From positions 1 to 64,000 of the forward strand of contig JADNRV010000143.1 in assembly GCA_015499995.1 (NCBI GenBank): a DNA stretch of 64,000 nucleotides, read 5' to 3'. A model generated the notes under the pieces. The model was not told where the DNA came from. It saw only the letters and a list, made by a program, of their open reading frames with translations, and made no database searches. Made by a program: the position numbers and the translations under genes. The DNA comes from Flammula alnicola. Taxonomy: Eukaryota; Basidiomycota; Agaricomycetes; Agaricales; Strophariaceae. Positions 25,508 through 34,036 of the stretch are shown in pieces (positions within the stretch are counted from its first letter, which is position 1; each line of letters begins with the position of its first letter).

Positions 25508-25894
25508 AATAGAATGCCATAGACGATCACAAACTGCATGTGTGGCATTCATTGTCTATTCCGTAAGCGTATGAAAGCAATGTAGATCTGGGAGGTCCTC
25601 CATCACTGGCACTGGCAGGATGCGCACCCTCTTCAGGAGGTCTCTGATAACTGAGCGATGAATCGTAAATGGGTGCATGGAGTTCAAGAAACGAACGATG
25701 TCATACCTAAGAAGCAGCGTGGTGGCAGTAATAGTAGTGGGTCAAATCAATTGTTTCGCGCAAAGTGCCTAGCTAGATCAGTGACATTGAATCCGGATGA
25801 CTAAAGCCCACAGCCCAGATTAAATTTGCATCGAATATATTCTTCGAAAGAAAAGGCGACGTACTGGTCTAACAGCGATTGCGGGCCACTAGAA

Positions 25895-26050
25895 TTCTGC
25901 GTGCCATCTGCGTGCCATGCGTGCACCTGCGTGCATGCGTGGCACGCAGATGCACGCAGATGCACGCAGGTACGCCAGTTCGTGGATGCGTGGCACGCAG
26001 ATGCGCGTTGGATGCACGCAAGCACGCAGATGTCACACGATGTCACACCT
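25895..26050. repeat. Left subterminal TGCACGCAGATG repeat cluster of the MULE
   Basis: Repeated TGCGTGCC, TGCACGCAGA and GGCACGCAGATG words in both orientations. The same word recurs at the other end of the element, in the arrangement expected for transposase binding sites. Isolated copies also occur near 26750. Confidence 0.8.
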
Positions 26051-26591
26051 ATGGAAAGGTCCGACAAATCAACACGTATATCAGCCACCACAACAACTTA
26101 GAGTGCTTATACATAATTTTTCAGTTTAATGTATTATTAATACAATTTATTGTGCCTAATTTTGAAGAGGGAGGGCGCATGTTGCCGTTTTTGCGCGAGG
26201 TTTTGTGTGCCAGGTGCCGTGGGAATGTGTCTAGGTGTGTGGGAATGTGTCCGACTCGGTGCATTTCCGCAGAAATGACCAACTTCGTACAATAATTACA
26301 CTCTTGCACATCCACTAATAGTGCTGCAAATTAGATATATCATGTCTTAAGGGGTTATATAGCCCAGGAAAATTTTTAAAAATGAAATTCGTTGCTTGTG
26401 GACTCGAGTCACCTTGCGGCACACTTCTGAGTGACTTACAATGAATGTGCAAACGAGATACAAGCATACCAGCATGTTTATTCAAAAGGTAAAGACTTAC
26501 AGAAATTGCCTTTATGTATATATACTCTGTGGAATCAATGTGGAATATTGTGCGCATTGAAGAACATCATTCTGTGCAACGGCCCGGGTCA

Positions 26592-26655
26592 CCGGGGCCC
26601 GACATCGTGTTTTGCCACAAAATCACGTGTGGCAAAAGTGGATGTCGGGCCCCGG
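26592..26655. repeat. Perfectly positioned hairpin inside the MULE 5' region
   Basis: CCGGGGCCCGACAT at 26592 is repeated inverted at 26642-26655, and TTTTGCCAC near 26610 pairs with GTGGCAAAA near 26629. The fold has arms of about 25 bp with 2-3 mismatches and a short loop. It lies about 250 bp before the MULE gene start. Its role is unknown. Confidence 0.7.
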
Positions 26656-26901
26656 CATCACTCGGCATTGTACGACGGGGATGGAAAAAGACTGACACTT
26701 GTCACCATATGTCACGTATCTCGCAAGACTGCACGCTAAGGCGAAAATCGTGCACGCAGCTGCACGCAAGTATATTAGTTCTAATTAATAAATATTTCTC
26801 CGTCCCAGAGGATTAGGTTCCGTTTGGCAATATGATCGGTCAAGTGGGTGCTCTGTATTTGAAATTTTACGGCTTTCTTCACTCCTTCTATCCCTCTCAT
26901 C

Positions 26902-29900
26902 ATGGCGCTGGTATGTCTCTCCCTTAAATCACAGGTGGACTGTATTAATAGTATATTCTATCTAGGGATTCATTAAGCATGTCTACCGGTACTTTGTTCC
27001 TGATCCTGGCCCTATAATTAGCGCGCCTGAGAATTGCGTCCCACTATATGATCCTAATGGTTAGCGTTCAGCTGTCAATGGTTTTACGGTGTTGTAACAG
27101 TGTAATACTAGGGAGAATTGTTGGCTACATTCAGCAGGGAAGTCATGTCTCACAACAGACAGGAGCACCACCAGTCATTTGTGAGTGAACGGTCTCATAG
27201 TTTTATTGCCAAATTAATATCCTTTTCTTAACAGCGTCTAAACCTATGCCCACGGTCAATCCACCAGTCATTCCTGTGCCCATCATTCACACGCCTAATC
27301 CTCCTGTCACTCCGGCGCCTAATCTTCCTGTCGCTCCCACGCCTAATCCATCTATTGTTCCCACACCCCAGGCTCATCTGCCTGTTGTCCCAGTTCCCCG
27401 GAATGATTCACCAATGGAGTGGGACGGTTGGCCTGATGGACAGTTCGAGCGTGATTTCACCTTTCCAGAGGCCAAAGCAACTGCAAATTTGAAATGTCAT
27501 TGGGCTGTTCGCGTCAACGGAGGAGATCGCAAGGGTGACGAGCATGCTGAATCGTGGCAGAATGGGAAAAGGGTGACCCGACGCTGTCTCGGAATCCTCG
27601 AATGCGACAATCAGGACTGTGAAGTGTCTGTGCGACCACAGACATCACCTCAGGGCATTGACGCCCAGCTTCGAAAGCGATGCCAGTGCGGCGCACAACT
27701 ATATCACCGAAAATGCGATATTCGCGCACTTTTATGGACTTGGCAAGGAGGGATTCATTATGTCAACGAAGGACATCATGCTCACCGGCGACCTGCTCAC
27801 ATTCTCCACATCCTCCCAAATGAGAGGATCCGATTCGAAACCATTGTCAAGAACCACCCTCAAGTTGGCCCTTTAGGATTGATCGTTGGTGTTCCAGGCA
27901 TCGACGGACCAGGAGAATCCATCGCAGATATCTCAGATGTTTTTCTCAATGCCGACCGTGTCAGTAAAGAGCGACAGAAGCTGAAACATGGCGACCCAGG
28001 AGGCGACGATGTGCTTGCAGCATTTGCCAAGTTCGAACAAGATCATCTGGGTTTCGTTATTTACTCAATCATTGGGCAAGTAACAGTCGTTTGTGTTCAA
28101 TCTTCATTCATGCGGTCGCAGCTTGTCAAGGAACGACTACTCGATGGCCCAATAAATGGGATGGTAAACGATGGCGCGCACAAGTTTTGGAGGCAGCACA
28201 ACTGCATTCTCATGGTTACCTCGACATATTGTCCCTCTCTTTTCTGCTGGGTTCCCGGTGTCCTCTCTTATACAAATGGTTCGAGTGCACAGCACTTCAG
28301 GTACCATTTCCTAGCAGTCTTTCAAAGTATCGTACGCGAAGCAGAGGATAGATTTGTGGCTATTGCTGATCGGCTTTTCGCAGGAGTACGTATATCTTTC
28401 ATTTATTTTGTATGAAACATTAACATGGTTATTAGGTGATGGACTTCAGTGAGGCTGAACGTGAAGGATGGATTCTGGCATTTATCGACCTTTGGATTCT
28501 GCGTCGTGACAATCACCGCACTGAAGATGAACTACGGAAGGCAGCTGAATGCCTTCTGCGAGGCTGTCAAGAACATTTTCGAGCAGGAGTCACCCGTGTG
28601 AGTCGAATCAGTGGCGCCGTTAGTCCTGAGCTATCCGATGCTTTCATTCACCGCGCGCTCGCACTTCTCGACGCACCTAATACAGAGGAATTTCGGTCTC
28701 GAGCAGCTCTCATTGTTCGTGACTTTCCCAAGCTCAAATCATGGGTGGAATAGTGGACACGGCCTGCTCATGCTGCTATGCTTTTCGACTCGGAGCGCAA
28801 AATGGATATCGAGATATGGGATTCAATACCTGAGACAACAAATGCGGAAGAGTCAATGCATTGGAAGATTTATTGTGCAGTTGGGAAGAATCATTCGTTT
28901 ATGACAGGAATGCGAGCGCTATATGCCTTCTCACTTTATTATGAACGAAAATACACGGCTACTCAGAGTACGTGTTTCTAGTTATCTCTTTCTTTTGGAT
29001 ATTGAACCTGGTACTTTTTAGAAGGTGTGCCTATCGCGTATGGGCCGCATGAAGCTTGGAAGGCTATGGCGAACAATATAGGACGTACAAAACCTTCACG
29101 CGCTGGAGATACAGCACAGAAAAAGCGCAAACTCAATGATGGACGCCCACCTGACACAATTAAAGAGCTCCTCAAAGCACCGAAAAAACAGAAGGCGCCC
29201 TCCAAAACTACAAAGTCTACCGCTCCAAAGTCTACCGCCCCTACGGCACCTAAAAGTCCTTTTCCTGTCCTGGGTCCACAGAGTTATCGATGGGCAAAAA
29301 ACTCATGCTGGCTTGATACATCACTGGAGCTCCTGTATGCTTCTGTATCGAGGAAATTCAACGATTTCTCCTCAGTATGCGAGCTGCTTCCTAAGGAATC
29401 TGGGATTTTCTGTCTATATACTGCTTTGAAGGGTCGTCACAATTTGGATCCAAACCTTCAAGATCACGAAGCCGCCAAACTTCTTATGCGACAGCGCGAT
29501 GTATTGCGGCGGGAGTTGAGGCAGAGAAGGGCAATTGGTGGTCTAGATAAATTTGAATCGCTTTGGGTAAGCATCCATCGTTTTGTATTCTGATTATATT
29601 AACGTGCACGCTACTAGGTTTGGCTAGGAACAATTGTCCGCGGGCCCACTACACGAAAGAAACAGCTCACCTATTCCTGTGCATCTCTATATTTCCAGTT
29701 TCTTCTCGTTGATATCCACGAGTGTTCTGGCTCACCAGAAATTGGAGGCCGCCATCTGGAAATTACAGCCATCCCTCGTCACCAGACCTTCTTACAAGTC
29801 GGCGCCTCAGAATCTCAATATCAGAAATGTGGCGGGAACATTGCTCATTATTTTGAGGACTTCTTCTCGATAAACAAGGAACCTATTCCCCAACGTACTT

Positions 29901-32156
29901 GCTGGCGTGTCAGAGAAGGAGAAACTCTCTGCACCGGGAAGCGTGAGGACATCCAGGGCCTTGTGATATCAATTCCTGTTATCCTAACAGTCGAGGTTGC
30001 CAACAATGACGCCCCCGATACCGACGACTCTCTTGACAACTCCGATATCCAAAAATGGGACTTTCCTCCAACTCTGACACCCCTCACACAGACGGACGCC
30101 GAGGAGCATGGCATTATCTATGATCTCGTGGGATTTGCCTTGCTAACTTCCAACAGAACACATTTCATTGCCAGATATGCATCTGAAGATCACAGCACAA
30201 TATATACGTATGACGGGCGGGCACACGATGGATGTCCAGTTCAGGAGACCAATGCCAAACTCTCGACCCACATCTCAGGCAGGGATATCATTATTCCCAA
30301 AGGATCTTCCGTTTACCAGGCATTTTATTTCTTGCGAGGCGGTACGCAGGCGCAGGATATCTTTTTTGAGCGCCAAACCCAAGCCCTGCGTCAAAAGCAC
30401 CCGGTCACCCTCTCTGGATCAACACTGTCGAAGGCAATATCAATGATGTACCATGCTGCTGATCTTACGCGAATGGACAAGAAGGAACGTTACTGGATGA
30501 AGGATCCATATGCCAGACAGAAGATCAAATACATTTCAAACACCACCAAATCTACAGCAACGTATTCCAGGGACTCGCTGGAGTCTGAGGATCCTATTTC
30601 TCTCTCAGATTCGATGAGCGAAGTAGACAAAATGGTCGCACCTGCAAAGTCACAAGTGTTATCCGACACATCATCGTTACCTGATTCCCTCTTTTCTCTA
30701 AATTGCCGCTGGGAACAAACAGCGATGGAAATCTTCTTTACCCAGAAGGCGAAGTCAGAGAGGCTATACAATGCGATGAATGCAAGGACTGGTCGCATGT
30801 GGCTTGTCAGCGAGAGGGAAGGGCGAGCAACCTGGGTGAAAACGAACCTTTCGTGTGCGACTGCTGTGATTTGTCGAGTCATAAAGCCCTCGGACGTTCT
30901 TCAACACGCAAGTACGTATCTTATCGGCTAGCTGTTTATTGGTTTAGCTAACATTTAAGCACATAATAGAAAGATTGAAGGACGTACCATGGTGAATCGA
31001 CCGTTAAAAGACCGTCTCAGGTATGTCTCAGCCCCCAAAAATCCCATTCCTTATTAAATTCCATCTGCAGGCGAGGAACTGGAGCACTAGCTCGCCGTGG
31101 GGTCTTTTGGTACCCTGTTCGAATTATCCACGTAGAAGATGGCAGTAAATGGCGAGTGCGATGGTGGAGGGAATGCAATTTTGCCGAACCAGGAATCGAC
31201 CGCGGGTCTGTTACAACTGTCGGAGTTGACGATATCGTTGATTCTTTATGGCTTGACCGAACTGGTAGACGAAAGATAAGGGTGAGTCAATGCCGAGACT
31301 GAAACAACAAAGAATTGCAAACTTACAATATCTGGATTCTGAACTAGCTCGGACAATGGACGCACGCAATGGAGATACCTACGTCCGAGGATATTCTCTG
31401 TGACCCGTCTTTGATCCCATTCACCACTGATATCGACAATGCCCTCTTGCCCTCACTTGATATGCTGAAGAAGGTCCTGAAAAAACCCGAGAATTTGGAT
31501 AATCGCGATATCCCAGCCAAGGCATGGCTCGAAGACCAGAAAAAATCACTCACGGAAACAATTGTTCCATTTGTCGGTGGCTTGTCAATAGCCGAAAGGG
31601 CAAAAATTGCGAACTGGTTTGAGGTGCGGGTCTGCGAAGGAGATAAGAAACTGCGGCAATACTGGTTAGGATTCCTACCAATTGCTCATGCCCATACAAT
31701 CTTCCTTTCCAGCCGGATCAGGGACACGGTGAAGGATGCTGACGAACATGAATTGCTGGCTAGAGCGTGGAAAGCTCAATATGCCGGCGATGCAAAAGCG
31801 ACATTACTTGTCGATATCGACGTTGACAAGGAATGTCTGGAGAGCCTCAAGGAATTAATGTTTGAGAGATCATCAAAAGCCGGCATTGCTGGTAACTGTC
31901 AATGGGGATTAGATGCAGGCGACCACCAAGAGTGCTGGGATCCGTACCAAGGCATTCCCTCCTATTGGAACTATGGGGATCGAAGTGAGAGCGAAGGAGA
32001 ACTCGAGGTGAGACTTCAATTCTTAGACGGCCGTGAGAATTACTAATCGAACTATGACAGCGTGGACTGAACTTTGTGGAGTTAGACTGTTCTATCCACC
32101 CCACTCCCGAGTCAAACACCGCGGCCCCCCGAAAAGACCTCAGCCACATCCTATAA
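26902..32156 (+). pseudogene. MULE transposase gene: GCM finger, transposase, USPL1-like peptidase, PHD, Tudor/PWWP-like; two lesions
   Basis: Eleven exons: 26902-26910, 26966-27059, 27112-27180, 27235-28385, 28436-28967, 29022-29566, 29618-30911, 30970-31020, 31071-31281, 31348-32007 and 32061-32156 (about 1570 codons). Order of domains: a Pro-rich repeat (about 60-115); a GCM-type zinc finger (about 140-250, with TRRCLGILECDNQDC and KRCQCGAQLYH); a MULE core (about 320-615: MVNDGAHKFW, FCWVPGVLSYTNGS, then LFAGVMDFSEAEREGW across an intron); a basic segment KKRKLNDGR; a USPL1/C98-like peptidase with Cys714 (AKNSCWLDTSLEL), His about 982 (THFIARY) and Asp about 999 (YTYDGRAHDG); a PHD finger (about 1163-1216); a segment with FWYPVRII and WRVRWWREC; and a helical C-terminus. 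Codon 547 is TAG (28751-28753) where a Trp is expected. A missing base near 30711 shifts the frame inside the PHD. All other frames join. Confidence 0.8.
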
Positions 32157-32337
32157 CCAAGAAAAAAAAGCCGAAGAAGTCAACTAAGACTATTGCATGA
32201 GCTATAAGCAGTATGACTTTCCATGTACTACGTAAAAATACATAGAGGGTAATAAGATATCTGGCGTTCAAGAACATTTAAATGCTTGAACTCTGAACAT
32301 CATCCAAGTTTGTAATAATGGCTCGTCCTTGCCTCCG

Positions 32338-32545
32338 TTATGACTGCACGCAGCTGCACGCAGATCACTTGGGAGGCAAGGTACGATGTGCACGCAGCCG
32401 CATGCAAATCGTACTGCGTGCCATCCAAATGCACGCAGATGGTCTGTCTATGCACGCAGATGGCTATCTATGCACGCAGATGGTCAGTCTATGCACGCAG
32501 ATGGTCTATCTATGCACGCAGTGGCACGCAGATGGCACGCAGAAA
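32338..32545. repeat. Right subterminal repeat cluster of the MULE
   Basis: At least eight copies of a TGCACGCAGATGG-like word. Four of them (about 32430-32520) have regular spacing with TCTATGCACGCAGATGG units of roughly 26-30 bp. They mirror the left cluster and lie between the gene stop codon and the terminal repeat. Confidence 0.85.
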
Positions 32546-33172
32546 AACCTGTGCCCCAGTGATTGCTGTTGAAGAGCTGCTCTGATCTTTATCATCTCGT
32601 GACAGTGGAGGACTGCCGCCGCAGGGAGGTGAGTTACCTGACCGAGACGGTCCATCTTCGATTCTGTTATCCAACCAGTATCCCAAAAAGCCCGCGCCGA
32701 TACCCAGAGAAATCCCTGCCAAGGCCAATGCGACCGGCGGAGCGACCGCCGCCGTCGCACCGAATGACTGAAGCGCAGAAAAGACGCCTGAAGTTGAACC
32801 AGCATACACAGCGGACTGAACACTGGCGGCAATGGAGCCTATACGAATGTCAAGTTCATCTACAGAGATTCCTTCAGATTCATTAGAGTAACACGAACCT
32901 GCAAGGACTCCACCAGCTGTGAAGCCTAACTCGTTCACAATCACCCCAGCCAACGAAGGCAGAATGGCTGCAAGACCCGCTGCCGCAAACCCACTACCGA
33001 GGAGCGCAAAAATGTGTTGCTTGGCGAGGTCGCCGATCTGTTTGATGAGGTGTGCCGAGACGAGCACACCAGTCGGGAGTCGGTCACGAATGAGGGGCAT
33101 CAGGGCATCGACAAGGTCTTCGAGTCGTGGTCGACGACCGCTGCCAGAAGGTAAAATGCTGTTGTTGGACAT
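32510..33172 (-). CDS. IFI6/IFI27 (Ifi-6-16)-like membrane protein, 3' end replaced by MULE sequence
   Basis: Exons 32899-33172 and 32510-32838, with a 60-nt intron (GTTCG ... TATAG) that is also open in frame. The protein start is MSNNSILPSGSG. The hydrophobic Ala/Gly-rich core (FAAAGLAAILPSLAGVI, GFTAGGVLAGSIAASVQS, GSTSGVFSALQSFGA, then VALALAGISLGIGAGF) matches the Ifi-6-16 domain. In animals this domain occurs in small mitochondrial or nuclear-envelope proteins. Fungal members have unknown functions. From about 32570 the reading frame runs into the MULE terminal repeat and ends there at 32510 (tail FLRAICVPLRA), so the original C-terminus is lost and a transposon-derived tail of about 20 residues replaces it. 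An ATG further upstream (33268) is less likely. Confidence 0.75.
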   Translation of the reverse strand: MSNNSILPSGSGRRPRLEDLVDALMPLIRDRLPTGVLVSAHLIKQIGDLAKQHIFALLGSGFAAAGLAAILPSLAGVIVNELGFTAGGVLAGSCYSNESEGISVDELDIRIGSIAASVQSAVYAGSTSGVFSALQSFGATAAVAPPVALALAGISLGIGAGFLGYWLDNRIEDGPSRSGNSPPCGGSPPLSRDDKDQSSSSTAITGAQVFLRAICVPLRA

Positions 33173-33174
33173 TT

Positions 33175-34036
33175 TGTATTGGTAGTGCTGGTTGAAAGCA
33201 ATGGGTTTATGGAAAGGACGGATGTCAGACGGGTGAGTATTTATATATATATCGAAATAGGTGCCCAAAATGCTTCTCGCTGTAATAGAAGTTCCGTGGA
33301 GAATTTGTCGCCCCGAAAGAACACACTTATCGATATCACAAAAGTTAGATTCAACGCTTCTGATTTACGGAACGTTCACCAGACGCATAAGCAGCCGCAT
33401 CCACATCGCGCTGCACATTCATTTCCGCTTGCATTGTGACTACATAAGCCAGTCGTTGTGTATTTTAGTCCCTGTCCGTTTGCCTCCTACGCTCACAGAG
33501 GCCAACCGGAATTCAACTTTTCTCTGCTTTCCTCAGTCCGATCTTGAGATGATCGCGCACTTGCAGATTTGATTTCAACAAGGAGCACAGAAAGAAATCA
33601 TTTCTCCGCTGCATAAGGAATTCCAGGTGAAGCATACACACTGTTAACGTGTTCCACAATCTATTCGCCTCCCGTCTTACTTTCAATATTTGTCTTTCTT
33701 CAAGGAAGCGGGCATGTCGCTGCCTGATTGACATAGTACGTGAGCTGCGCACTGTAAATCGCGCACATATCTATCCGATCCTCAGCATAGCCTAATTTTC
33801 AAAGCCCAGAGAGACTTGTCTATATAAGATACACTTGAGCCTATGACTTGCAATAAGTGAAAGAAACCCAAAGAACGCTGGGGGGCTCCGCGATGGTAAA
33901 CCTACCTCTCGCGTCTGGCTCTAGCATGTTATGGATGGGGCCGCGGCATTCTCTGAGGCCCAGGTTATTGATTGGCAGAGGACATGCTGGCGCCGCCGCT
34001 AGCCACACAATTCACTTCAAAAAGGTAGGCCTATTT
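33175..34036. other. Intergenic, no gene seen
   Basis: Probable promoter of the IFI6-like gene followed by DNA without a recognisable exon chain. Short open frames exist, but none shows motifs. Confidence 0.45.

Follow-up and report, generated by a model that had tools for sequence, protein, structure and literature searches.

A probable Mutator-type DNA transposon of mushrooms whose long transposase carries a GCM finger, a PHD finger and a predicted USP-fold isopeptidase

Introduction

Proteases of the Ulp1, OTU and VTD types are carried by several classes of transposon, and what keeps them there is a standing question. Ulp1 has been described in Mutator elements and OTU in Ginger1, and Ulp1 together with a PHD finger in Ginger1-9_HM, which was aligned with Mutator transposases (PMC2836005; this and the other papers are cited from excerpts). 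Other Mutator-like elements (MULEs) carry OTU or SET (PMC6446971), Helitron deubiquitinases are active on ubiquitin and were proposed by their authors to protect from degradation (PMC9741609), and TET/JBP is found in fungal transposons in a paper whose available text does not mention GCM, PHD, peptidase or Ulp1 (PMC12730594). Here, a gene at 26902-32156 was analyzed in a 64,000-nt stretch of the mushroom Flammula alnicola (contig JADNRV010000143.1, positions 1 to 64,000; hereafter the window). A preliminary description made from the sequence alone had read it as a transposase gene combining a GCM finger, a MULE core, a USPL1-like isopeptidase, a PHD finger and a Tudor/PWWP-like segment.

The gene probably belongs to an autonomous Mutator-type DNA transposon found in F. 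alnicola and other mushrooms, here in a decayed copy, with a GCM finger, an Asp-Asp-Glu (D-D-E) core, a predicted ubiquitin-specific protease (USP)-fold isopeptidase that would protect transposition, and a PHD finger.

Results

A single gene, broken in the window copy

Reconstruction of the gene gave 11 exons separated by introns of 50 to ~67 bp, as follows:

26902..28385, forward strand: exons 1-4, with the N terminus, Pro-rich repeat, GCM finger and first Asp
28436..28967, forward strand: exon 5, with the second Asp (28442), C-x2-H (28565-28576) and Glu (28850)
28751..28753, forward strand: in-frame TAG of the window copy, not in the copy on contig C42
29022..29566, forward strand: exon 6, with the end of the transposase core and the peptidase Cys box in a single open frame; Cys714 at 29306
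29618..30911, forward strand: exon 7, with the remaining peptidase (His982 at 30161, Asp999 at 30212), a linker and the frame-shifted PHD finger
30970..31281, forward strand: exons 8-9, a small beta-barrel segment (RGTGALARRGVFWYPVRI..WRVRWWREC)
31348..32156, forward strand: exons 10-11, a conserved helical C-terminal domain (QWGLDAG)

The exon chain first proposed could be rebuilt over its whole interval, and Cys714, His982 and Asp999 fall exactly where they had been placed, but the chain is not intact: in addition to the TAG at 28751, the peptidase frame differs from the PHD frame, no fitting intron was found there, and at this point the C42 copy has a one-base difference in length. The C42 copy is free of the TAG and the frame change and carries other lesions.

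At E ≤ 0.001, 38 homologous proteins were found, 13/38 covering at least 90% (90-99%) of the 1560-residue conceptual chain, which places the exon chain far beyond chance. Its best protein matches were two F. alnicola models, P0001 and P0002; models P0001, P0002, P0004 and P0006 belong to the C50, C42, C34 and C523 copies, respectively, and P0001, the annotated model of the window copy, is distorted near the lesions. Exon 6 of the window stays open, without a change of frame, from the core end (GVPIAYG, GRTKPSR, NDGRPPDT) through the Cys box. The copies on C34, C823 and C523 each have the Cys box in frame with NDGRPPDT, and in each an open frame of 424-426 codons spans the His box, the Asp box and the beginning of the PHD finger. 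That the C-terminal half is a neighboring gene of its own, an alternative raised in the preliminary description, was rejected on the strength of the near-full-length relatives, exon 6 and the joint His-Asp-PHD exon; judged from these sequences, a single gene encodes one long predicted transposase.

The element and its copies

The interval originally described holds this gene, but the unit is larger, a transposon with the following parts:

25873..25882, no strand: 5′ target-site duplication copy, matching 32557-32566 in 9/10 bases
25883..32556, forward strand: whole transposon, ~6.67 kb; the 99% identity with the C42 copy (main block) ends exactly at both borders
25883..25917, forward strand: 5′ terminal inverted repeat, of which the inner 23 nt are perfect (25895-25917 and 32522-32544, 100%)
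25896..26036, no strand: 5′ subterminal GCACGC/GCGTGC repeats, where the transposase may bind
32344..32543, no strand: 3′ subterminal GCACGC repeats; 32429-32521 is a 21/41-bp minisatellite
32522..32556, reverse strand: 3′ terminal inverted repeat, pairing with the 5′ repeat
32557..32566, no strand: 3′ target-site duplication copy, partner of 25873-25882 (9/10 bases)

Target-site duplications of 9 bp, within the 8-10 bp of MULEs, were read by eye at eight insertion sites, three of them perfect (C812 CATTTACAA, C823 CATTGTAAA, C523 GTTGTGCTC) and the others matching in 8/9 bases (C34, C42, C242, a short C523 copy, C8). The C66 copy has the same flanks as the C242 copy. A second family in the same genome comprises three copies (C34, C823, C523) of 6830-6853 bp, whose protein P0004 is ~47% identical to the window's chain. 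Short copies of ~1.1-1.7 kb on C66, C242, C812, C8 and C523 have the same ends without the gene, as judged by the distance between the ends; the region at 63.6-66.8 kb of C8 looks like two inverted-order copies within one outer duplication.

GCACGC/GCGTGC hexamers numbered 13 in 25883-26901, 2 in the gene, 11 in 32157-32556 and 16 in the remaining 57,326 bases of the window. This subterminal enrichment is common to both families, and the repeats are likely transposase binding sites.

GCM finger and transposase core

Two features mark the N-terminal half:

27420..27791, forward strand: GCM zinc finger, WDGWPDG to HAHRR
28170..28172, forward strand: catalytic Asp 1, codon 370; D in 42/42 relatives with a letter

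The GCM finger of the preliminary description was recovered in both sequence and fold, and fits the MULE type of N-terminal finger (WRKY/GCM, FLYWCH or similar); a PF03615 profile search of the F. alnicola genome found nothing, and control genomes were equally silent, which makes that result uninformative. Columns were counted over 46 relatives (42 mushroom, 4 distant), only those with a letter at the column being included, and core columns are numbered as in P0004. D399 and D473 were D in 42/42 each and E609 was E in 38/39; C514 (36/39) and H517 (37/38) were conserved in the mushroom proteins and in 4/4 distant relatives, as was W573 (35/35 and 4/4). A D-D-E set with C-x2-H and a Trp between the second D and E is typical of MULEs, and the same core pattern has been described for the MULE Muta1 (PMC5225508). 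In the P0024 model (predicted local distance difference test, pLDDT, 78.7), the first strand beyond the GCM part holds D308, a short strand precedes D382, and a helix begins directly after E518, the order that the model would share with an RNase H fold. The target duplication and the GCM finger favor a MULE over a KDZ-type transposon; no KDZ family turned up in general Pfam scans, none of which was aimed at KDZ.

A predicted USP-fold peptidase

When the peptidase of relative P0039 was modeled, fold searches matched USPs. USP7 and USPL1 tied in Foldseek, with USPL1 second, and USPL1 was not among the 50 VIA fold matches listed. Across the relatives the triad was Cys in 35/36, His in 42/43 and Asp in 40/44 (the Cys column has a single Ser, the Asp column K 1, E 1 and N 2), and Cys and His were the two invariant columns in 23 peptidase sequences. 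Because the triad is conserved across relatives, a chance Cys/His/Asp set was rejected; an Ulp1-type peptidase was rejected because Ulp1 (C48) had no Pfam match in the window chain, relatives or consensus and the fold matches are USPs. The best C98 and UCH profile matches were E 0.066 and E 0.13 (one member each of 23). PF15499 matched neither the F. alnicola genome, where split exons limit sensitivity, nor the peptidase consensus; phmmer of the consensus against PDB sequences gave chance matches only, the family profile reached a USP at E 5.1 only (USP54), and NCBIfam gave no useful match.

From its predicted fold and near-invariant Cys-His-Asp triad, the peptidase appears to be a USP-fold thiol isopeptidase, the modeling favoring neither SUMO nor ubiquitin as its substrate. 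The fold and triad of the USPL1-like isopeptidase initially proposed were retained, and the choice between C98 and other USPs is left level by the tie between USP7 and USPL1.

In C34 versus C823, 60 synonymous and 31 non-synonymous changes were counted (ratio of non-synonymous to synonymous change, pN/pS, 0.15), with 21 and 11 for the peptidase (0.15), and in C34 versus C523, 57 and 34 (0.17), with 20 and 12 for the peptidase (0.17), the two sets of figures being nearly one measurement since C823 and C523 are 99.7% alike. By these counts the peptidase appears to be under purifying selection together with the rest of the protein. PHD changes were too few for an estimate (1 and 1).

A USP without a chromatin role, which only keeps the proteasome from degrading the transposase or its partners, is a serious contender, if somewhat short of probable. 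The model is matched by USP7, USP1, USP46 and USP18 no less well than by USPL1, and protection is what was proposed for the ubiquitin-active Helitron enzymes (PMC9741609). The residue after the catalytic His argues the other way, being F in 30, Y in 7, W in 1 and I in 1 (n = 39), where USPL1 has Phe and ubiquitin USPs have Tyr (PMC8983731), as does the PHD finger in the same chain.

PHD finger, barrel and relatives

The PHD finger lies within exon 7:

30709..30867, forward strand: PHD finger, Pfam PF00628 E 0.0035 in the window copy

The finger named in the preliminary description was confirmed by PF00628 (P0004, 25.2 bits, above the cut-off of 24; 12/14 members, with two further A1 members having no PHD match), by its Cys/His set and by profile comparison, in which Bye1 was reached at E 4.6e-10. 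The cage Trp is conserved in 29/31, and the best solved PHD relatives are mostly in proteins that we take to read H3K4-methyl, a mark of active chromatin. For the segment that had been called Tudor/PWWP-like, support stops at a modeled barrel: the P0039 model gives four strands at high pLDDT, and no sequence family match was found in Pfam or, beyond chance matches, by phmmer against PDB sequences.

It is possible, though doubtful, that the PHD finger and barrel guide insertion into active chromatin and that the isopeptidase is used only there, for example on ubiquitinated H2B. The PHD relatives fit this, as does a USP22/Ubp8-type SAGA deubiquitinase among the peptidase fold matches, whereas the single insertion examined is in the 3′ portion of an open reading frame.

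Slightly less probable is the proposal of the preliminary description, a self-contained anti-silencing transposase that reads a histone mark, removes SUMO and opens silenced chromatin. The domain set, Phe after His in 30/39 and the second place of USPL1 in Foldseek suit it, and so does the pattern of decay: 32 of the 34 substitutions between the window and C42 are transitions, 23 of these at CpG (21.5% of C expected), and the same CpG comparison in the second family gave 52/87, 50/84 and 14/19. These CpG-biased transitions indicate that the copies were probably reached by methylation, so silencing is a real pressure and escape is incomplete. The presumed reading of an active mark by the PHD relatives, with the cage Trp kept, and the decay and probable methylation of the copies tell against it; its substrate and mark are hypothetical.

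The relatives named come from 25 species, which belong to Agaricales but also to Boletales (Hygrophoropsis) and Gloeophyllales (Gloeophyllum). Four distant relatives (P0038, P0044, P0045, P0046) have the GCM, D-D-E and Cys-His-Asp columns and miss most of the mushroom C terminus; the triad columns hold in 4/4 and the GCM Cys/His columns in the 3/3 that cover them. P0046 has a CxxC...CxxC pair resembling the usual USP zinc ribbon, plus an N-terminal ZF-HD_dimer match. Viral contigs gave 41 pattern matches and no relative.

Other features of the element

A 64-bp palindrome lies inside the element at 26592-26655. When 26575-26680 was searched against the genome, 57 matches resulted, some ~2.5 kb beyond PF10551 MULE loci (C40, C79, C239), and the palindrome is possibly a nested hairpin element or a common MULE feature. 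The non-coding segment 26276-26408 is 5′ of the gene here and on C849, and 3′ of the gene in unchanged orientation on C34, C823 and C523, so that part order is rearranged between the families. The C42 copy (L012) has an additional 268 bp of GCACGC-type tandem repeats at window position 26727, a fast length change of the subterminal arrays. The minisatellite before the 3′ terminal inverted repeat is clear in the window copy and C42, and in the C523 copy the 5′ side has the larger array. An A-rich site just before NDGRPPDT differs in length among C34, C823 and C523. An open reading frame at 32513-33364 (reverse strand, 284 aa, no Pfam match) extends into the 3′ end of the element, which supplies its final residues and stop. 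An Rfam search gave no match.

Discussion

The favored reading is an autonomous Mutator-type transposon, decayed in the window, whose isopeptidase protects transposition. At the level of sequence it brings together terminal repeats, 9-bp duplications, a GCM finger, a PHD finger and a D-D-E core that also has the C-x2-H and Trp. The GCM finger would bind the subterminal GCACGC repeats, the D-D-E core would do the cut-and-paste, and the PHD finger and C-terminal barrel may anchor the complex, at either the donor or the target site, through methylated histone tails. The isopeptidase would strip ubiquitin or SUMO from nearby proteins, of which the transposase itself and chromatin or repair proteins at the site would be the likeliest targets, leaving the transposase neither degraded nor repressed. 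Removal of a transposition-limiting modifier is likelier than any digestive or host role.

Several observations weigh against this reading. The window copy is dead, with a nonsense codon, a frame change and CpG decay, and that decay suggests methylation of the copies. Of the MULE core first proposed, the Mutator-type D-D-E, C-x2-H and Trp stand, but Pfam MULE (PF10551) matched neither the window chain nor the relatives or consensus, hhalign gave a weak alignment (69 columns, probability 20.7%) with MULE frames from the F. alnicola genome, and the fold-search matches listed are USPs, none covering the core with its putative RNase H fold. No sequence profile was significant for the peptidase in the window chain, relatives or consensus; the preliminary description had treated the lack of a C98/C19 match as grounds for abandoning the assignment, and it is outweighed here by fold and triad conservation. 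Of the three second-family copies, only C823 has GRTK and NDGRPPDT in-frame, C34 and C523 changing frame at the A-rich site before NDGRPPDT. The near identity of C823 and C523 also counts here, as does the barrel, which is Tudor-like in the model only and showed no constraint (changes 2 and 4, pN/pS 0.58, in the first comparison; 1 and 4, 1.15, in the second).

A bolder version, an ancient eukaryotic transposase lineage with an integral, selected USP-fold SUMO isopeptidase in addition to GCM, D-D-E and PHD, in which one protein finds the element, lifts SUMO repression and moves the element, is unlikely; if it were true, the distant relatives would place the gain of the peptidase by the transposase ahead of that of the PHD finger. 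A catalytically dead or passenger peptidase is the least probable, since the lack of a profile match, the broken window copy and the exceptions at the Cys and Asp columns are set against a triad among the best-conserved residues and against purifying selection.

A Mutator-type element whose isopeptidase protects transposition would add a further protease fold family to those of transposons, fused with a transposase and a histone reader, in which the peptidase is kept by selection over a broad mushroom set; the short non-autonomous elements are possible reporters for its role. If the activity proves to be SUMO removal, no earlier case of a USPL1-like enzyme carried by a mobile element would be known from the literature searched, which includes few subscription papers. 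A search for USPL1 with transposase found nothing relevant there, most subscription papers being outside its coverage.

Comparison with known systems

The principle is known from MULEs with Ulp1 or OTU, which tempers any novelty; the domain set, as read from sequence, is new to us. USPL1 (C98) resembles the mushroom peptidase in its USP fold, Cys-His-Asp triad and the Phe that follows His in most mushroom members, and presumably in a common CWLD box, and differs as a host SUMO protease without a transposase; the mushroom zinc site is C-H-C-C, not four Cys.

With MULEs the element has in common the 8-10 bp duplication, D-D-E with C-x2-H and Trp, and an N-terminal zinc finger, and it differs in having no Pfam MULE match and in its USP-fold peptidase, PHD finger and barrel; the group table in the available text of PMC6446971 has no basidiomycete group with these parts. 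Rehavkus, a MULE outgroup, likewise has a PHD finger in its transposase and a 9-bp duplication, and its minisatellite near the 3′ terminal inverted repeat has a counterpart in the window copy and C42, but it is listed from arthropods and annelids, with no peptidase mentioned in the excerpts, and was compared by description only (PMC6446971). MULEs and Ginger1 elements with Ulp1 or OTU also join a DNA transposase to a SUMO or ubiquitin protease (PMC2836005), theirs being C48 Ulp1 or OTU and the mushroom one having a USP fold. Trichomonas XP_001314237.1 combines a DDE transposase (transposase_11) with peptidase C19, in another transposase family and with no GCM or PHD mentioned in the passages available (PMC2836005). 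The Helitron VTD/OTU deubiquitinases are, like the predicted mushroom enzyme, thiol isopeptidases encoded by a transposon, of another fold family and in another transposon class (PMC9741609).

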